Source: an uncultured Verrucomicrobiota bacterium | Lineage (GTDB): Bacteria; Verrucomicrobiota; Verrucomicrobiia; Limisphaerales; UBA9464 | Length of the DNA: 45,902 nucleotides | Direction: 5' to 3' | Assembly: GCA_903939515.1 (NCBI GenBank) | Contig: CAJAHH010000130.1 | Coordinates: 1-45,902 of the forward strand | Part shown: positions 19,704 through 29,490 of the stretch, piece after piece | Layout: each line of letters opens with the position of its first letter | Position numbering within the stretch: position 1 is the first letter of the stretch | The notes under the pieces: generated by a model | The model's database searches: none | Told to the model about the DNA's origin: nothing | The model's input: the letters and a program-made list of their open reading frames with translations, nothing else | Translations under genes and position numbers: made by a program

Positions 19704-19937
19704 GTGAACGGTGAAACCGTGGTTTTCAAAGTCGGCAACAGCCTTGCAGTCCGCTTGGTTGGCGACTGCCGTCTTCCCCGGGGCACTCGCGTCCGCGAAC
19801 GATGGGAAGGCAAAAGTATCGTCATCGAACCGGTAGTCGACACCTGGTCCCACGCCTTCCTTGCGAGTGCAGGCACCTGGGATGAGCCCATTGAGCGTCC
19901 GGGCAGGAACGAACCAGCCAGAGACCCCTTCGCGTGA
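19704..19937 (+). CDS. vapB: VapB-type (AbrB fold) antitoxin
   Basis: 77 aa, GTG start. FKVGNSLAVRLVGDCRLPRGTRV is the AbrB/MazE swapped-hairpin DNA-binding motif (G-N-S-x-A-V-R), followed by KSIVIEP and a short acidic/proline tail that would wrap the toxin. It overlaps the PIN-domain gene by ATGA (19934-19937). A palindrome just upstream supports autoregulation. Confidence 0.85.
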   Translation: MNGETVVFKVGNSLAVRLVGDCRLPRGTRVRERWEGKSIVIEPVVDTWSHAFLASAGTWDEPIERPGRNEPARDPFA

Positions 19938-20332
19938 AATTCCTGCTGGATACCTGTTCAGTCAGCGATTACCTACGCGGTGTGGAGTCTGTAGTGCAGC
20001 GACTCCAGGAGGCCAAACCCTCCGAAGTGGCCATCAGCGCGGTCACCGTCATGGAACTCCGCTATGGGGCAGTGCGTCGGCAATCGCCCAAACTGACCGC
20101 TGCGGTGAATGCCTTCTTGAACGGCGTCAGCATTATCGCCTTTGACGCCGAGTCCGCCGAGCGAGCTGGAGTCATGCGAGCCACCATGGAGGCCGATGGG
20201 CTCAGCATCGCTTTGGCAGATTGCCAGATTGCCGCCACAGCCCTGGCCTACGACCTAACCCTCGTCACCAACGATGGGGACCTGAAGCGCGTGCCTAAGC
20301 TCAAGATTGTTGATTGGCGACTTGCACAATGA
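19934..20332 (+). CDS. vapC: VapC PIN-domain ribonuclease toxin
   Basis: 132 aa, full-length PIN domain. Acidic metal-binding residues in order: D6 (LLDTC), E41 (VMELRYG), D96 (LADCQIAA) and D114 (VTNDGDL). VapC toxins cleave tRNA or rRNA and are held inactive by VapB. Translationally coupled to the antitoxin gene by a 4-nt overlap. All catalytic positions are intact, so it is probably active. Confidence 0.9.
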   Translation: MKFLLDTCSVSDYLRGVESVVQRLQEAKPSEVAISAVTVMELRYGAVRRQSPKLTAAVNAFLNGVSIIAFDAESAERAGVMRATMEADGLSIALADCQIAATALAYDLTLVTNDGDLKRVPKLKIVDWRLAQ

Positions 20333-21741: not shown

Positions 21742-22050
21742 ATGCAGAAAATTCCCCGAACCAAAACCAAAATGAAAACGAATAAACTCAAAAACATTGT
21801 TACCGATGCAAAAGTGGCCGCCGCCACGGTTGCATTATTGAACATCACATCTCAAATCAATGCACAAAGCGGCGGTGGAAATCCGGCCTGCTCCACGCTT
21901 AATTGCGGACCATTCGAAATGTGTTGCAGTGGCACAGTATCCAGTGGGCCGGGTTTTCAAATTGGAATTGCCTGGTGCTGCTCGACCAATGGCTATTGTG
22001 GTCAACCAAGTATGTCAAATGGCAAATGGGTTGGAACATGCACGAACTAA
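21742..22050 (+). CDS. Secreted eight-cysteine small protein/peptide precursor
   Basis: 102 aa from ATG 21742 (AGGAA just upstream); ATG at 21772 would give 92 aa. A basic N-terminus (KTKMKTNKLK) and hydrophobic VAAATVALLNI lead to a signal-peptidase-like site at INA|Q (residue 41). The mature part of about 60 residues has eight Cys at 50, 55, 61, 62, 79, 80, 86 and 100, with two vicinal pairs (MCC, WCC), as in knottin or hevein-like disulfide frameworks. It is the first gene of a same-strand cluster with a MauE-like membrane protein and glycosyltransferases. A strong hairpin follows the stop. I do not recognise a family. Confidence 0.65.
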   Translation: MQKIPRTKTKMKTNKLKNIVTDAKVAAATVALLNITSQINAQSGGGNPACSTLNCGPFEMCCSGTVSSGPGFQIGIAWCCSTNGYCGQPSMSNGKWVGTCTN

Positions 22051-22069
22051 AAACCTCTGATTAATTTCC

Positions 22070-22112
22070 CGCGAGCCTCCCTTAGCAAAGATTTACCTCG
22101 GGGAGGCTCGCG
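22070..22112 (+). terminator. Strong hairpin behind the cysteine-rich gene (terminator or attenuator)
   Basis: CGCGAGCCTCCC (22070-22081) pairs perfectly with GGGAGGCTCGCG (22101-22112), a 12-bp GC-rich stem with a 19-nt loop, 20 nt after the stop codon. No long U-run follows, so it may be a partial terminator or an RNA-stabilising 3' structure. Such an element would let the peptide be made in excess over the downstream genes. Confidence 0.7.
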
Positions 22113-22190
22113 TCATCAAGTTTCTAACCTATTATGGTCACCCAAAACTCAAAAAGCAAGACATACTCCTCGAACCATAATTTCTCGCCA

Positions 22191-23009
22191 ATGAAATTAA
22201 AATTTGCAACTTTGGTTATCACAATTGCCGCCGCTTGTTGTGTCGCCTATTTTGTTCATGGAGCGAGACGGCAAACAAAGGTCATAGAAGGAATAAAGGC
22301 CACAGAAACGCGGTATCAGCAAAAAGCGAGAGAATGGAAAAATGGTTCGTTCATTGGATTCCAAGAAATCGCAGCAGTAGAAGAAAAGGCAGTGACATCC
22401 CTTCGCGAGCATTCTACCAATCTGACTGCGGTACAAATCAACTCATTCGGCGCGGCGTATTCGCGCGCGATCTCCTACCTTTTCGATCCCACATTCAAAA
22501 GGTATGTGGCCATGAAATCATTTGACCGTCCTTATAAGGTAAGAAAGACCGGCACAGCACCATCCAAAGAAGAAATAGGTGAACTCGAGCCGAGCGTGGA
22601 TGAACAGAAGCGGCTCCACGGTCAGGCCGAAAAGTATTGGGATGCGGCTTACAACCCCGCCGACCTCAAAATCCAACGAAAAATTACAGCGATTGATGCG
22701 TCCACCATTTCGTGTAATCACGAAACTTCTAGGTTTGAAATAACATCCGCACAGGGACGATCACTCGGAACGAGCAGTTCCTACGCTGTGACTTTACCAA
22801 CACTTATTACTCCTGCTGATACTCCTCGGGATGCGATTCGTAACCAAGGTTCCGTTGACTACACAATTACTACTAGCATCGTCAAGACTACTACAGCCGA
22901 GCTTCCCTCGACGCTGACGCTCTCATTTTTTTGGAGCGAAAAGGAGTCATGTTGGTTCGCGTACGAGGCCGTCGTCGATTCGTTCGGCGGTCTATATATT
23001 TTCTTTTAA
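22191..23009 (+). CDS. Hypothetical membrane-anchored/exported protein of the peptide cluster
   Basis: 272 aa from the ATG at 22191; the frame extends upstream to 22134 but the internal start gives a typical signal anchor (KLKFATLVITIAAACCVAYF). The rest is soluble, rich in Thr/Ser/Lys, with coil-forming EKAVTSLREHSTNL and a β-rich C-terminal half (TLTLSFFWSEKESCWFAYEA). Not recognised. Expected outside the cytoplasmic membrane. Same strand as the peptide and MauE-like genes. Confidence 0.6.
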   Translation: MKLKFATLVITIAAACCVAYFVHGARRQTKVIEGIKATETRYQQKAREWKNGSFIGFQEIAAVEEKAVTSLREHSTNLTAVQINSFGAAYSRAISYLFDPTFKRYVAMKSFDRPYKVRKTGTAPSKEEIGELEPSVDEQKRLHGQAEKYWDAAYNPADLKIQRKITAIDASTISCNHETSRFEITSAQGRSLGTSSSYAVTLPTLITPADTPRDAIRNQGSVDYTITTSIVKTTTAELPSTLTLSFFWSEKESCWFAYEAVVDSFGGLYIFF

Positions 23010-23071
23010 CCACTCAATTCATTTTTTCATTTCGGTTAATCCTTTTTCGAGTCAATTCAATTTGGGGTATC

Positions 23072-23536
23072 ATGGCCAAACTTTATATTGCGCGTCTATT
23101 CCGGATTTTTGTCAGCGTTGTTTTTCTCGCCGCTGCGGGCTCGAAGTTAATTGATCCGTCGCCAACTACCAAGGCGCTTGTAATGATCGGGGTTTCAAGC
23201 AATCTTGCATTTCTTTTCGTCTTTGTACTCCTGTTTGTCGAACTCGTTATTGGCGCGTCTCTGTTAGTGGTTTCGAGACAGGAAATTGCCAGCATTGCAG
23301 CTATCTGGATCTTCGGTTTATTCACGTTTTATCTTTGTTATTTATTAACCCTTAAATCCCCACCACAATGCGGCTGTGGAGATCTGCTAACGATGTTTGC
23401 CGATGCGAAAAATAACGCAATATTTGGAATATGTCGTAACCTTCTGCTAGCCATCGGCCTTTTCGCCTCTCTAAAAGTTCAGGACTCGACGTCCCGTAAC
23501 ATCGGGGAATTTTACCCGGAATCGACACGAAATTGA
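23072..23536 (+). CDS. MauE/DoxX-like redox-associated membrane protein
   Basis: 154 aa from ATG 23072; the frame is open further upstream but overlaps the preceding gene. Four hydrophobic helices at about 8-25, 46-66, 73-92 and 118-133. Between the third and fourth is PPQCGCGDLL (C100-x-C102), the motif of MauE/DoxX-type membrane proteins linked to periplasmic disulfide formation, with a further Cys at 121. In methylamine dehydrogenase biogenesis MauE helps form the disulfides of a Cys-rich subunit. Here it lies beside an eight-Cys secreted protein, so a role in oxidising it is an attractive inference. Confidence 0.75.
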   Translation: MAKLYIARLFRIFVSVVFLAAAGSKLIDPSPTTKALVMIGVSSNLAFLFVFVLLFVELVIGASLLVVSRQEIASIAAIWIFGLFTFYLCYLLTLKSPPQCGCGDLLTMFADAKNNAIFGICRNLLLAIGLFASLKVQDSTSRNIGEFYPESTRN

Positions 23537-23549
23537 TGCTTTTGGTTGC

Positions 23550-24569
23550 ATGATGAAACATCAAGTTCCACTCTATTTATTTGGGACTCCGGGACCTGTC
23601 GGCGGAGCTTCAACCAAAATTCTTGATCTACTGCCGCTCTTGAGTCGAAATTTCGACGTTAAATTAGTCCTTGGCCCGCGTGAGCTCCGCCACAAACCAT
23701 TAATTCAATATTTAACGGCTAATTCTTACAATTTTTTGTCGCGCGCGAAATTTCCACGAAAGGCTTATGGAATCGCGCTTGCAATCTGCGAATTGGATTT
23801 CTTTAGTTCTGGACAGGCTCAGCGTGTTAAAGACGCTGGCCTAAAACTAGTTTGGTCGAATGAGATGATGTGGCCATTTGCAGGTGAATCCGACGCAGTG
23901 CGATGCGGATTAGTGGATCACGTCTTATTTCTTTCAACAATACAGCAGGATGCGTTTCGGGAAATGTATCGGGGAGTAAAACAATCCATTGTTGGAAATT
24001 ACATAGCACCAGACTCGTTTCCATTCATCGATCGCCATAACGCACCTGATTTTTCGATCGGAAGGCTCTCACGGCCCGATCCGGTTAAGTATCCATGCAA
24101 TTTCCCCCTTTTCTACGAAGAAATCGGGCTTCCTCATTGGCGTTTTCGAGTTCAAGCGTGGAGTCGGGAATTGGCACGCATGTTCTCATGGCATAAGTTC
24201 GACAATCGGTGGGAATTCTATTTCACCAATCAACTACCTTCTCGGGTGTTTCTATCTCGCGTGGATTTGTTTGTATATCCGCTTGGACATTCTTTCATTG
24301 AGTCGTGGGGGCGGGTCGTAGGTGAGGCAATGTTGACTGGCTCAATCCCACTTGTACCGTCGGGGCATGGATTCGAACGCATCGTGGTCTCCGGAGTCTC
24401 GGGATATATTTGTAACTGCTTTGATGAGTTCAAAGCGCTAGCACGCGAACTCGAAAGTGACTCAAAGAAACGCCACAATATGGCTCTTAAGGCGCACGAG
24501 CATGCGCGCTACAATCTATTTGATCAAACGAAGCATGAGCAACTATGGGTTCAAGTTTTAAGTGTATAA
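23550..24569 (+). CDS. Glycosyltransferase, GT-B fold (GT4-like)
   Basis: 339 aa. An N-terminal Gly-rich loop (FGTPGPVGGASTK) and the C-terminal signature FIESWGRVVGEAM with E251-x7-E259, followed by TGSIPLVPSGHGFERIV, are typical of GT4-type retaining glycosyltransferases that use nucleotide sugars. Cytoplasmic. It follows the MauE-like gene by 13 nt and precedes an unknown gene by 12 nt, so an operon is likely. The acceptor is unknown: it could be a polysaccharide or a peptide. Confidence 0.75.
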   Translation: MMKHQVPLYLFGTPGPVGGASTKILDLLPLLSRNFDVKLVLGPRELRHKPLIQYLTANSYNFLSRAKFPRKAYGIALAICELDFFSSGQAQRVKDAGLKLVWSNEMMWPFAGESDAVRCGLVDHVLFLSTIQQDAFREMYRGVKQSIVGNYIAPDSFPFIDRHNAPDFSIGRLSRPDPVKYPCNFPLFYEEIGLPHWRFRVQAWSRELARMFSWHKFDNRWEFYFTNQLPSRVFLSRVDLFVYPLGHSFIESWGRVVGEAMLTGSIPLVPSGHGFERIVVSGVSGYICNCFDEFKALARELESDSKKRHNMALKAHEHARYNLFDQTKHEQLWVQVLSV

Positions 24570-24581
24570 GAGTGCTTATTC

Positions 24582-25163
24582 ATGAGTGAAAAATTAATCT
24601 GCCAATGGACAGTTCTAGGGCATGAAACACTAGATTGGGCAGCGAAATTCTCAAGTGAAAACTGTCAACTCAGTTCGCCTATCCCTTTCATCGCCTTCAC
24701 TCCAAAAATTGTCCCGGGAACCATCTCGTGCGCGCTTCCAGAAATAAATAAAGAAGGGGATTTTTTTCAACTAATACTACTTAAAACGGCTTGCTCGAAA
24801 CTAAAATATGACATTTTCATTTGGACGCCTCCACGTTCGCAAGGACCGATAACGCGACCAGAGTCAATTAACCTGCTCGGACTACTTCCTGTATACATTC
24901 CACTATACACTCCAAGCTCTAGCTTTTTATCGGCCGCGGATGAAATGTCATTGGAGCTTCTTGAAATAGCAGGAATCAGACGCCCTATGTTGCCGTGTGC
25001 TGAGGCTGCCTGGATCGTTCGCCGCAAAGCAATTCCTGCAATTTGGGACATGTCCCATTATTTAATAAATTTAGCAGCAGCAGAAGGCCTTCCAGTTAGC
25101 ATGTCAACTTGCCTCGCATTTTGTGCTCAAATGCTAACTGCGGATCGCAACAGATTGTCCTAA
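24582..25163 (+). CDS. Hypothetical protein, possibly a divergent sugar-transferase-like protein
   Basis: 193 aa, ATG at 24582 (spaced 12 nt from the GT4 gene). No confident family. DIFIWTPPRSQGP and AEAAWIVRRKAIPAIWDMSHYL loosely resemble the MDSD and NAGFFIVPNKIPWDLF blocks of the glycosyltransferase at 26225, so it may be a reduced relative, but the metal-binding DxD is absent. In a cluster with two real glycosyltransferases. Confidence 0.4.
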   Translation: MSEKLICQWTVLGHETLDWAAKFSSENCQLSSPIPFIAFTPKIVPGTISCALPEINKEGDFFQLILLKTACSKLKYDIFIWTPPRSQGPITRPESINLLGLLPVYIPLYTPSSSFLSAADEMSLELLEIAGIRRPMLPCAEAAWIVRRKAIPAIWDMSHYLINLAAAEGLPVSMSTCLAFCAQMLTADRNRLS

Positions 25164-25214
25164 CTAAAGCGATCTTAAAAGGAGATTGTTGTTCCAACAA
25201 AAATAGGACTGGCC

Positions 25215-26000
25215 ATGAAAGCTAAGGATCGTAACAAAATTCAGTATTCCATGCAGCAAGGAGTGACACTTGTTGAAGTTATGGTGGTTTTAGCTGTAGT
25301 TGTAATGCTCTTGTCGATCTTACTCCCAGCACTCGGTAAGAGCCGCGCGACTACTCGAAAAACGATTTGTCGGTCGAACCTGCGGCAATTGAGTCTTTCA
25401 ACGATACTCTACTCAAATGATGATTCTAAAGGAGTTTTAGTTGCACAACTGGAACCTGATGATCAAAATTTGTCTTGGCTTTATCCAAGGTATATTCCGA
25501 ATCGCAGTTTGCTTAATTGCCCAGCTACGTTAAACAGAATCTCAGAAAAGCCTCGCGTAGATCAGATTTCAGGAGAGCCGACGCTAGCTGAGCTGACATT
25601 TTTAGCCACGGATGGAAAATCACGGTCTGGTGTGAGTTACATGCAAACTGGTTGGATGGGCTGGCGCACGGGTTCTTCGACTACGATTGAAATTAAAGGT
25701 CGTACCTGGGAGGTTCCATTTACTAGGAAAACTGTCGAAACCGTAAATCATTACGAGCATTTCTGGAACGCATTCTCACTCAAAGGCATCATTCCAGGTC
25801 CATCGCAGATTTGGATCTTCAACGACAATAACTACGCAGACCAAATTCATTTTCCTGATCGGTTAGACAATCATGGAATTTTTGGCGGCAATGTCGCGTT
25901 CGTTGATGGCCACGTTGAATGGGTTTCAGCGAGTAAATATGTTTACAGCTACGAACTTTCACAGGATGACAATCGAGAGACGATCGGTTTTAAGTACTGA
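25215..26000 (+). CDS. Prepilin-like protein with N-terminal methylation/cleavage motif
   Basis: 261 aa. The class III signal QQGVTLVEVMVVLAVVVMLL gives prepilin peptidase cleavage after G16 with Glu21 as +5 residue, followed by a hydrophobic helix and the KSRATTRKTICRSNLRQL segment typical of planctomycete/verrucomicrobial pseudopilins. Near the C-terminus NHGIFGGNVAFVDGHVEW is the H-x9-DG motif of this group. Such proteins are very numerous in these phyla and probably build type II secretion-like pseudopili or surface fibres. Its place in the peptide/glycosyltransferase cluster suggests cell-surface export. Confidence 0.85.
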   Translation: MKAKDRNKIQYSMQQGVTLVEVMVVLAVVVMLLSILLPALGKSRATTRKTICRSNLRQLSLSTILYSNDDSKGVLVAQLEPDDQNLSWLYPRYIPNRSLLNCPATLNRISEKPRVDQISGEPTLAELTFLATDGKSRSGVSYMQTGWMGWRTGSSTTIEIKGRTWEVPFTRKTVETVNHYEHFWNAFSLKGIIPGPSQIWIFNDNNYADQIHFPDRLDNHGIFGGNVAFVDGHVEWVSASKYVYSYELSQDDNRETIGFKY

Positions 26001-26224
26001 TGCGCAATTTGAGATCAGGAAACAGATTGTGCAAAATGCAGGGAAACTCGCCGACAGTGAATTACACGAGATGGAAATGATGTTTAGCAATTTACTCTAA
26101 ACACAGGTATTGAGGTAAGTGATCATGGTGGGGTGAAAAGCCCTCTTGAGAACAGTTAGTAATTTTAAAGTATAACCAATGGCTTGCAAGTGTATTTTGC
26201 AGACCGGTTTAAATATTAGCCATA

Positions 26225-27628
26225 GTGAAAACGATGGATCTTCCGCAAACGGTTCGCGATTATGCGTGTTATGTTCTTTCTTGTGAACGGGATATGTCTA
26301 TGCTTTACGGTAGTCTTGATTCCCTTCAGAAAATGGTTGGGTGTCCGTACCGGATCGTTGTTGTCTCTGATGGTTCGATCAGTTGCAAATCCAAGCTGTT
26401 GCTGGAGAGAAATTTTAGTTGTCTAACTGTTGTGGAATGGGACGCATTCACGGCCGAAAGTGAATGGCGGAAACGTTTCGAATTCTTGGCAGATACACCT
26501 ATGGGGCGGAAGCTTATCCTTATGACGCTGATGCCTTTGGGGGGGCCATCGTTCTACATGGATTCAGATGTTGTGTTTTTTCCAGGTGCGAATGATTGTC
26601 TCTCCCCAGCGTGGTGCAGGAGGGAGCCATCAGTGTTACTAGATTGTCAGTATTCGCTTGATATGCGGATGCTTGACTCTCCTTCCGAGGTCGGTTTCTC
26701 TACGAACGCTGGGTTCTTTATCGTTCCCAATAAGATTCCTTGGGATCTTTTTATGGATCGAATCGAGCGCGTCCGAGATTCGTTCGTCCCATTTAGCGAA
26801 CAGACCGTCGTTCATTTAGCACTGCGAGCAGCCGGCGGAATTGCACTGGATCCAAATACCTGCATTCTTGAAATTGAGGATTCCTTTTCGGAAGACGATC
26901 TCTATGCGACTAACTCTAGTGCTTTTCGGCATTATGTAGCTCCGTTTGCGCGTTCGAAGATTGGTCGCTCAGTGATGGCAGTTGAGGGTGGTAATCCTGC
27001 CCGAGAGGAGTTTCGGTCAGTCATTTGTTGCCGCCGTTCTAGTGAATTGGCAGTAGTCTTCTGCCGTACTCTGACTCGACTTCGAGAGTTAGGCTATAGA
27101 GAGCTAGTAGAAGCGTTCCTTAAACGTTTCTGTATTGGTCGAACCCAATCCTATTGGATGATGTCAGGGTTTGTTGCTGGAATTGCAAAGGCCTTGGAAC
27201 ACGAGCAGGCAGATTGTGTCAAGGAGCTCTTCGATATAGAAATGCTTGGCATTCAGGTCTGGGCGGCTGCTTCGACTCAACCCCACTTGAAATCGGGAAT
27301 AGAAGATGGCGGTATCATTCCATCATTATTAAAACTGAACCGAATTGTAGGCATTGCTCCAATTGTTCACCTTTGGAATGAGACTTGGGGATGGGTCGCG
27401 GTTTCAGGGGCCAAGGTACAGTACAAATGGGTTGTAATCTATCCGACGGTGCGTGGTGTCGCGGAATGGTACTTTGATGAGGATCCGGTCAGCCTAGGCA
27501 GTGATCAAAATGTCGAAGCACTTGATCGAGATTGGAATTGGTTTTCCGGAGGAAGTCCATTTACATGCAGCGGCGGGAGCCTCAGAAGACGCCTTGCGAG
27601 ATGCGGAATTCTGCATAGCGTTACATAA
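26225..27628 (+). CDS. Glycosyltransferase, GT-A fold (GT8/GT2-like)
   Basis: 467 aa; GTG at 26225, or ATG at 26234. A nucleotide-sugar fold start (YRIVVVSDGSISCKS) is followed by the metal-binding DxD in FYMDSDVVFF (D113-x-D115) and the acceptor-side block STNAGFFIVPNKIPWDLF, as in family 8-type enzymes. The C-terminal roughly 200 residues are of unknown function and end close to the IS66 insertion. 224 nt separate it from the prepilin gene, so it may have its own promoter. Likely cytoplasmic, using UDP- or GDP-sugar. Confidence 0.7.
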   Translation: MKTMDLPQTVRDYACYVLSCERDMSMLYGSLDSLQKMVGCPYRIVVVSDGSISCKSKLLLERNFSCLTVVEWDAFTAESEWRKRFEFLADTPMGRKLILMTLMPLGGPSFYMDSDVVFFPGANDCLSPAWCRREPSVLLDCQYSLDMRMLDSPSEVGFSTNAGFFIVPNKIPWDLFMDRIERVRDSFVPFSEQTVVHLALRAAGGIALDPNTCILEIEDSFSEDDLYATNSSAFRHYVAPFARSKIGRSVMAVEGGNPAREEFRSVICCRRSSELAVVFCRTLTRLRELGYRELVEAFLKRFCIGRTQSYWMMSGFVAGIAKALEHEQADCVKELFDIEMLGIQVWAAASTQPHLKSGIEDGGIIPSLLKLNRIVGIAPIVHLWNETWGWVAVSGAKVQYKWVVIYPTVRGVAEWYFDEDPVSLGSDQNVEALDRDWNWFSGGSPFTCSGGSLRRRLARCGILHSVT

Positions 27629-27931: not shown

Positions 27932-29490
27932 CTTTCAATTACCCACAAGTTTCAACCGTCAAAAATCAAGAAAATTTGAAAAAATTAATATACAATCGAT
28001 TCGGTTTGTTATGAATTTAAAGAGTGCAAGTTAAACCGATTTCCGATGATAACAGTTCACCCTCAAACGATGGACTTAATAAGTGGGTTGAATCTGAAAT
28101 TGGGACTTCGCATTTTGCGGATGAACGTCTAGCAAAGCGTTTTGGAACACTCTTAGGTATGCTGACACGCAGAGTAGGCGACAGCCTTCCCGCTGCGTGT
28201 GAGGATTGGGCAAATACGAAAGCAGCTTATCGTTTTTTCTCAAACGACCGAGTAACTGAACAGGAAATCCTGGCTGGCCATTTTGTATCAACAGCCCGGC
28301 GGGTCTTATCTTCAGCTGAGGAGACTTTTCTTGTGCTGCATGACACCAGTGAATTCTCCTACAATCGGGGTAACACGAGCAATTTGGGTTTCATTTCCAA
28401 ACTTCCCAATGGCAAACCACGGTCTCATCCCGACCCTCATCGACGACTGAGAGGAATTCTCTTGCACTCGAGTTTGGTCATTACCACGTGCGGCCTCCCG
28501 CTAGGGATTGCTGCCGTCAAGTTGTGGACACGAAAAGAATTCAAAGGATGCAATGCCCTGAAGCGGAAAGTCAACCCAACCAGGATACCTATCGAAGACA
28601 AGGAGAGCTTCAGATGGTTAGAAAATATCCGACAGTCAACTCGATTGCTGGCCCGGCCAGAACAGTGCGTCCATATCGGAGATCGAGAGAGTGACATTTT
28701 CGAGTTGTTCAGCGTGGCTAAAGACCTTGGCACAAAATTCATTGTTCGGACCTGTGCAAAACGTATGACAAAGGATGGAGGTACCTCGGTAGCTGAAGTG
28801 ATGACTGAGAGCCTGGCTCAAGGAGTACACCAGATTCGAGGTCGAACCAAAGAAGGTGAGAATTACCAAGCGGCCTTGGAAATCAAATTTGCAAAACTTT
28901 TGATTCACCCACCAGTGGCCAAAGCAAAGCGATATCCGGCACAGGAGTTAACTGTGATCCACGCAACCGAAACATCTGTCCCAGAAGGCAGAGACAGAAT
29001 TTTTTGGAAGCTGTTGACTAACTTACCAGTCAAATCACTGTCAGAAGCTATTGAGAAAATTGAATGGTATGCAATGCGTTGGAAGATCGAGATGTTCCAT
29101 AAGGTCTTAAAATCCGGATGCAGAGCTGAAGAGTCCAAGTTAAGAACATCTGAAGGCTTAGCAAAATTGATCGCGACTCTATGTATCGTTGGATGGAGAA
29201 TCTTTTGGATGACGATGCTTCAACGCGAAAATACAACTGAAGAACCAACAGCAGTTTTCACTGAAAACGAATTAAATATTCTTGACAAATTAGTAAAACC
29301 AAAGAGGCATGAAGCGAGTCAACCGAGGAGTCTGTCCAATTATATCAGGAAAATGGCCAAACTTGGGGGGTACCTGGCACGAGCGAGCGACCCACCACCG
29401 GGCAATCTAGTCGTCTGGCGAGGCTTTTCGCGTCTCAATGATATCCATCTTGGCATGTTACTGGCGAAAGGAAATGTGGGTAATTGAAAG
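27932..29490 (+). mobile_element. IS4-family insertion sequence nested in the IS66 left end
   Basis: 1559 bp. Terminal inverted repeats begin CTTTCAATTACCCACA on the left and end TGTGGGTAATTGAAAG on the right (perfect over 16 nt). Target duplication GCGGTGAAC at 27923-27931 and 29491-29499 (9 bp, as for IS10/IS50-type members). The duplicated bases are part of the IS66 terminal repeat, so this element landed inside it after IS66 had inserted. Confidence 0.95.
28024..29487 (+). CDS. IS4-family transposase
   Basis: 487 aa, GTG start. N-terminal Tn5-type DNA-binding region (WVESEIGTSHFADERLAKRF, then DSLPAACEDWANTKAAYRFF). Catalytic DDE: D107 in LHDTSEF, D220 in IGDRESDIF and E356 in the family signature YAMRWKIEMFHKVLK (the Y-2-R-3-E-6-K motif). 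The stop codon lies within the right inverted repeat. All catalytic residues and both ends are intact, so the element may be active. Confidence 0.95.
   Translation: MQVKPISDDNSSPSNDGLNKWVESEIGTSHFADERLAKRFGTLLGMLTRRVGDSLPAACEDWANTKAAYRFFSNDRVTEQEILAGHFVSTARRVLSSAEETFLVLHDTSEFSYNRGNTSNLGFISKLPNGKPRSHPDPHRRLRGILLHSSLVITTCGLPLGIAAVKLWTRKEFKGCNALKRKVNPTRIPIEDKESFRWLENIRQSTRLLARPEQCVHIGDRESDIFELFSVAKDLGTKFIVRTCAKRMTKDGGTSVAEVMTESLAQGVHQIRGRTKEGENYQAALEIKFAKLLIHPPVAKAKRYPAQELTVIHATETSVPEGRDRIFWKLLTNLPVKSLSEAIEKIEWYAMRWKIEMFHKVLKSGCRAEESKLRTSEGLAKLIATLCIVGWRIFWMTMLQRENTTEEPTAVFTENELNILDKLVKPKRHEASQPRSLSNYIRKMAKLGGYLARASDPPPGNLVVWRGFSRLNDIHLGMLLAKGNVGN

Follow-up and report, generated by a model that had tools for sequence, protein, structure and literature searches.

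MauE of the mau cluster has a role in the disulfides of the small subunit, and GtfA, the first enzyme in the glycosylation of serine-rich adhesins, belongs to glycosyltransferase (GT) family GT4. Here we describe a gene cassette in a 45,902-nt contig stretch (CAJAHH010000130.1, hereafter the window) of an uncultured Verrucomicrobiota bacterium, in which a gene for a small Cys-rich peptide stands with genes for an anchored protein (ANC), a MauE-like membrane protein, a GT4-type and a GT-A-like glycosyltransferase, and a prepilin. Among described systems, glycocins are reported to combine Ser or Cys glycosylation with nested disulfides and to use C39 exporters (PMC12457901). Bufferins are presented as MNIO-made peptides with a Sec signal peptide and a Cys-rich precursor, and with a DoxX gene in many of their clusters (PMC12452194); serine-rich repeat adhesins are presented as glycosylated on Ser/Thr inside the cell and then exported by a Sec-type route (PMC5578698, PMC6973325). 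The cassette is real, recurs in one mostly uncultured Verrucomicrobiota order and is apparently undescribed: the accessible portions of the open-access literature searched held no account of a peptide system in which MauE, a GT4/GT-A pair, and a prepilin come together. We read it as coding for Sec-exported, disulfide-bonded, probably glycosylated and diversifying peptides, perhaps exported by a dedicated pseudopilin, and we give this reading about an even chance of being right.

The unit occupies 21742-26000 of the window and consists of six tightly spaced genes, all on the plus strand, with gaps of 62, 13, 12 and 51 bases from ANC through the prepilin. Its features are:

21772..22050 (reading frame open from 21742), plus strand: Cys-rich peptide precursor with a signal-like leader and an eight-Cys core; relatives lie within the same cassette.
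22070..22112, no strand assigned: strong hairpin 3' of the peptide gene, without a T run (-30.3 kcal/mol, z -5.1).
22134..23009 (start may be 22191), plus strand: ANC, with an N-terminal membrane anchor and an extracytoplasmic domain; no Pfam family above cut-off.
23072..23536 (reading frame open from 22931), plus strand: MauE-like membrane protein with CxC (PF07291), probably a disulfide-forming enzyme.
23550..24569, plus strand: GT4-type glycosyltransferase (PF00534), sharing 46-47% identity with the relatives in L039, L040, and L041, of the same order.
24582..25163, plus strand: degenerate, shortened GT-A-like protein, without DxD and with its C-terminus missing; homologue of the intact GT4 partner found elsewhere.
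25215..26000, plus strand: prepilin or pseudopilin with an N-methylation motif and H-X9-DG.

Whether a peptide gene was present decided how each GT4 locus was classed; in L151 and L159 the peptide was recognised by reading. Twelve assessable loci carried such a gene (the window, L039, L041, L049, L050, L051, L053, L110, L149, L150, L151, and L159), and eight assessable GT4 loci did not (L147 and L152-L158; L154 and L155 were counted despite one short side, of 288 bases in L155). Every one of the 12 peptide loci has a prepilin no further than 1 kb from GT4, and none of the eight others does; when the window is excluded, the counts are 11/11 versus 0/8 (Fisher p 1.3e-5). The prepilin never served to find any locus. 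MauE is present by selection in L039, L041, and L050, which were found through it, and in the window, which was the starting point. L040 and L050 denote a single locus, counted once; the peptide genes of L108, L083, and L084 have no GT4 and stand outside the count. Loci that were broken or cut by a contig end were dropped (L038, L042, L048, L052, L054/L146, L055/L148, L057, L056/L088, and L160 to L165). Two of the dropped loci (L161 and L164, the latter broken) have GT4 with a prepilin close by, L056/L088 retains MauE with a broken GT4 and no nearby prepilin, and no GT-A was seen in L160 or L162.

ANC and MauE are also present in 12 of the 12 peptide loci. The first profiles detected six and seven of them, respectively, and the others were recognised from reading frames; comparison of the first with the frame-read sets by profile gave 97.7% and E 2e-12 for ANC, and a probability of 68% and E 5e-5 for MauE. 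The CxC motif is retained in all six diverged MauE proteins. In the eight loci without a peptide, ANC and MauE were found by no profile, first or second. As its check, the preliminary description had asked whether genes for the peptide, a MauE-like protein, and glycosyltransferases are found together with a peptide core that varies; in relatives they are, and the core varies behind a conserved leader. A hypergeometric p of 5e-11 for peptide against GT4 genomes was discarded as circular, the peptide profile having been built from those eight genomes; the standing of our reading is unchanged by this, because the context test is independent of that value.

Relatives were searched for at several levels. 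MauE is sparse (10 of 145 genomes, the window's own included), and its neighbourhoods show that further families of the order have this cassette as well. The gene order in L039 and L040 is ANC-MauE-prepilin-peptide-GT4-GT-A, and L041 has the prepilin-peptide pair doubled. The MauE homologues of L085, L086, and L087 have no leader-bearing peptide nearby. A GT4-alignment scan of 84,980 species genomes, which relied on two short peptide patterns and was not exhaustive, gave 10 loci; the taxon is given for three, all Verrucomicrobiota, and one of the loci (G068) belongs to Limisphaerales, the order of the window. In profile searches of 320 genomes of this order, MauE was found in 21 (E up to 1e-5), GT4 in 20 (E up to 1e-20), ANC in nine (E up to 1e-5; diverged ANC escape), and the peptide in 11 (E up to 0.01), eight of them strongly. 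The weak peptide hits G040, G073, and G261 (E 0.002-0.003) were excluded from the counts, and in L112, the stretch around the G040 hit, no further cassette gene was found by profile. New from the peptide profile were additional copies in G068. In a sample of 387 genomes of the phylum, the peptide profile returned the window's genome and one hit (E 0.009) that was rejected as false, since it covered only the leader part and lay inside a long open reading frame (ORF). A search with the single peptide sequence, which hit 91 of 145 genomes at E up to 1 (own included), was set aside as nearly all chance; its best value outside the own genome was 8.9e-4, and the true G056 homologue (E 0.03) was recognised solely by the adjoining MauE. 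The viral contigs searched with MauE contained no relative. Eighteen other genomes of the genus gave neither a peptide hit (E up to 0.01) nor a GT4 hit (E up to 1e-20), and G005, of the same genus, has ANC-MauE-prepilin as far as the contig end (L038); the cassette is therefore patchy, not unique.

The peptides share a charged, hydrophobic leader (e.g., MNKLKKLFSPSTLAATVATGLL) with the common motif KLKKLFSPSxLAAT, followed by a Cys-rich core. Conservation of this leader in relatives suggests that the window peptide starts at the ATG at 21772. Its leader has a charge of +3 and a hydrophobic stretch, VAAATVALLNIT, followed by INAQ, and its eight Cys are spaced C-x4-C-x5-CC-x16-CC-x5-C-x13-C. The preliminary description called it a secreted eight-Cys peptide; the Cys count is correct, and we infer secretion by the Sec-like leader from charge and hydropathy, which fit a Sec signal peptide in 7 of the 7 leaders examined. 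Among 18 precursors compared (the L040 copy carries a stop within the leader), 17 have 6, 8, or 10 Cys in the core, an even number that is consistent with a disulfide-bonded core, and the motif aromatic-x-CC-x5-C is frequent. A Chitin_bind_1 match was discarded (13.6 bits, cut-off 27.8), and a profile search of the PDB with the peptide matched antibody chains alone, at E 0.017 or worse.

Leader and core differ in conservation. Mean identity among 17 peptides is 42% in the leader and 24% at non-Cys core positions, and the leader is the more similar part in 120 of 136 pairs. Between L051 and L108, both of genome G068, 146 of 148 upstream positions and 113 of 120 leader positions (94%) are identical, compared with 99 of 157 (63%) in the core, which has 23 gap columns besides. 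The codons that differ between L110a and L110c comprise 31 nonsynonymous and nine synonymous changes in the core, and four and none in the leader. Thus some copies show clear core diversification and some show none; L041a/b are of the latter kind, their differences being mainly synonymous in leader and core alike, with no signal of positive selection. A linker with at least one-third Ser and Gly joins leader and core in 12 of 17 peptides. No fold as low as that of the hairpin behind the window gene arose in 200 mononucleotide shuffles. Of 14 peptide genes tested, five are followed by a hairpin with z below -2.5; the feature is therefore recurrent, not universal.

Most other parts named in the preliminary description were borne out. 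The anchored protein is ANC, for which a profile search of the PDB gave a best E of 0.057; the hairpin is as strong as described. The MauE/DoxX-like protein matches PF07291 with 56.9 bits (cut-off 27), its CxC reads CGC, and its likely start is at 23072. The GT4-type enzyme matches PF00534 (35.5 bits, cut-off 26.4), and the pseudopilin matches N_methyl PF07963 (25.0 bits, cut-off 21.2) and H-X9-DG (20.3, cut-off 19). The protein at 24582-25163, left there as an unknown, is instead a degenerate and shortened protein of the GT-A-like family whose members normally come after GT4.

In 29 of 32 distinct GT4 loci, a GT-A-like gene or fragment is found no more than 271 bases away from GT4. The window copy matched nothing in Pfam or NCBIfam; the intact copies of L039, L053, L147, and L154 gave nothing above the Pfam cut-off and nothing in NCBIfam, and a profile search of the PDB with the GT-A-like protein found nothing. 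Twelve assessable GT4 loci were new from the order-wide search (L147 and L149-L159): four have the peptide cassette, two an NHLP-type peptide, three a poly-Ser protein, and three none of these. In L155 (G138), the GT4/GT-A pair comes after a small peptide with a GG leader and two exporter genes of NHLP type (TIGR03796, 1108 bits, cut-off 853; TIGR03797, 924 bits, cut-off 709). L154 (G162, of the same genus) has a matching peptide, and there the end of an exporter gene lies at the contig end (ABC2, 659.7 bits, cut-off 709.4). An NHLM_micro_ABC1/ABC2 exporter beside a GG-leader peptide was found in L155 alone, not in the window. The cores of both GG-leader peptides are Cys-free and rich in Ser and Thr (53% in L155:7744-7902; 57% in L154:4677-4832, reverse); with their neighbours, these peptides are candidates for a glycosylated, ribosomally synthesised and post-translationally modified peptide (RiPP) in their own right.

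Proteins with an N-terminal poly-Ser stretch lie near, or divergent from, the GT4/GT-A pair in L147:2035-8292 (reverse), L156:7193-12991, and L153:8617-10683. Those of L147 and L156 are Rhs/YD-repeat proteins, and that of L153 has 689 amino acids and no known family. By eye, the C-termini of the L147 and L156 proteins are Cys-rich. In the GT4 tree, the two NHLP rows form one supported clade (98/91), the three poly-Ser rows group less firmly (77/80), and both kinds fall within a larger clade (100/100) free of peptide-cassette rows. The pair recurs with differing Ser-rich substrates, and the best explanation of this is that it glycosylates Ser/Thr in peptides or proteins; guilt by association supports, short of proof, that the cassette peptide is among its substrates.

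On our reading, a small ribosomal peptide would be made in quantity, and the cytoplasmic GT4/GT-A pair would probably add sugar to Ser/Thr before export. The modified peptide would leave via Sec, after which the MauE-like protein could oxidise its Cys to disulfides. ANC may act as a chaperone, as some other partner, or in immunity (L110 has three ANC to go with its three peptides), and the cassette pseudopilin, helped by ANC, might hand the peptide to a type II/IV-pilus-like machine; the window genome encodes a prepilin peptidase, six secretin places, and nine T2SSE places. Diversification of the core behind a conserved leader is what one would expect if the product were secreted to act as an effector or in recognition, the simplest such case being an antibacterial peptide or one used in competition. 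More tentatively, and as a possibility less probable than this reading, the cassette may represent a new class of ribosomal peptide, with a signal-like leader recognised by GT4/GT-A, a swapped or diversified disulfide-rich core, MauE-type oxidation, and release by a peptide-specific pseudopilin; the GT pair would then be a portable Ser-modifying module with three types of substrate, namely peptides exported by Sec, peptides exported by NHLP systems, and YD-repeat proteins with poly-Ser.

Several observations weigh against our reading. The eight genomes with strong peptide hits are the eight that the profile came from, so that it adds no independent genomes, and the same profile overlooked the peptides of L151 and L159. 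The MauE-like proteins of L110, L150, and L151 fall under the Pfam cut-off, and that of L159 has no Pfam MauE match. Cassettes are broken in L108, L088, and L083; L108 is moreover frame-shifted, and its core divergence may therefore partly reflect decay. The L110c core has 11 Cys, and the count is even in just 15 of 18 precursors when leader Cys (L039, L149) are included. The synonymous pattern of L041a/b counts here as well. The Ser-Gly linker is absent from five of 17 peptides (L039, L041a/b, L053a/b) whose GT pairs are intact, and is therefore not a general sugar site. In the window, the GT-A partner without DxD is degenerate, which makes two-step glycosylation there doubtful. The NHLP context amounts to two loci of one genus, and three of the eight non-cassette GT4 loci (L152, L157, L158) show no Ser-rich substrate. 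AlphaFold models of ANC and the peptide (pLDDT 44 and 51) were too poor for a fold search. In L043 and L044, MauE and a prepilin (with ANC in L044) occur and no GT4/GT-A was found. The neighbours in these two loci (family f32) are a 627/668-amino-acid protein without a Pfam family and an FAD amine-oxidase-like protein, and L044 has a small ORF with seven Cys and no leader.

Prepilin-peptide pairs are repeated in L041 and L053, and in L158:4876-12142 genes resembling PilB/GspE and PilC/GspF (below equivalog cut-offs) stand two genes from GT4/GT-A. Together with the prepilin that each of the 12 complete cassettes carries, this would suit a surface or pilus-structure locus, the alternative already named in the preliminary description, in which the GT pair sugars the prepilin or builds a surface sugar, the Cys-rich peptide is a disulfide-stabilised pilus-tip or adhesive subunit, and variability serves kin recognition or phage escape. 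We consider that account rather unlikely, given that the eight other assessable GT4 loci have no prepilin within 1 kb of GT4 in the sequence available (288 bases on one side in L155), that L155 pairs the GTs with a bacteriocin-type exporter and a Ser-rich peptide, and that L110 has three peptides and three ANC with a single prepilin. Still less probable is a bufferin-like metal-binding or stress peptide, whose Cys would chelate periplasmic metals as MauE maintains the redox balance. The Sec-like leader, the many Cys, and a DoxX-like partner as reported for bufferin clusters (PMC12452194) agree with it, but no MNIO (PF05114) match was found in the window's genome (assembly 96% complete; the control was positive in 2 of 14 genomes), core Cys are mostly even in number, the core differs between paralogues, and the GT pair is left without a role. 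A methylamine dehydrogenase-type periplasmic redox enzyme, with MauE serving a small Cys-rich subunit, is suggested by MauE family membership and is very improbable, as MauE was the sole Mau model matched among eight scanned window proteins, with no match to the structural genes MauA/MauB, and the core varies too much to be a catalytic subunit.

The surroundings of the cassette bear on its origin. The preliminary description placed the cluster below its flanks in GC content, which is true of 22-29 kb (0.44-0.48) against 17-21 kb and 30-43 kb (0.57-0.62), but similarly low values (0.48-0.54) occur in the window's first 7 kb. An IS4/Tn5-type transposase lies to the right of the cassette (28024-29487); with the low GC and the patchy occurrence, it makes the cassette fit a mobile or acquired segment. 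A GT-A-like glycosyltransferase of 467 amino acids (26225-27628), which starts 224 bases past the prepilin and matches PF03407 weakly (16.6 bits, cut-off 22), had been counted in the cluster; blastp (E up to 1e-3) matched it to none of the ORFs in the 49 compared loci, and we therefore left it out of the unit, outside which it probably lies. To the left (19704-20332) is a likely toxin-antitoxin pair, AbrB-like and PIN-like as judged by eye. An anti-phage defence role was dropped, as PADLOC models matched none of the seven proteins tested (five of the window, two of L039).

Should our reading be right, a mostly uncultured order would hold a family of peptides that have diversified, are stabilised by disulfides, and probably carry sugars. 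A testable role would follow for one kind of H-X9-DG prepilin, as would one for MauE beyond methylamine oxidation, and the GT pair would be new, with a partner that has no Pfam or NCBIfam family.

Compared with known systems, the cassette shares a MauE family protein with the mau cluster; the substrate is unrelated. Serine-rich repeat adhesins, unlike the cassette products, are large and Gram-positive, use accessory Sec, and involve no Cys-rich peptide, MauE, or prepilin. As in bufferins and other Sec-exported RiPPs, a Sec-type signal would serve as leader of a Cys-rich precursor; unlike bufferins, the cassette has a GT pair, a prepilin, and ANC, in a genome without an MNIO match. On the more tentative view of a new peptide class, core diversification behind a near-constant leader would resemble that of cone-snail toxins. 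The glycocin-type logic first proposed for the window holds in part. Like the glycocins sublancin, glycocin F, and thermoglycocin as described in the cited account, the system has a small Cys-rich peptide with what may be a dedicated GT and thiol-oxidation partner genes (PMC12457901), and the proposal gains support because the same GT4/GT-A pair, in one branch, adjoins an NHLP/C39-type exporter and a Ser/Thr-rich GG-leader peptide (L155). Unlike glycocins, the cassette has a Sec-like leader, MauE in place of the thioredoxin-like pair, a GT4 with a GT-A-like protein, a prepilin, and ANC; no C39-peptidase/ABC exporter of the PCAT kind that removes glycocin leaders was found among eight scanned window proteins, and GT4 matched PF00534 and no glycocin GT model in Pfam or NCBIfam. 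The cassette peptides would work partly like glycocins but are, strictly taken, not members of that group.

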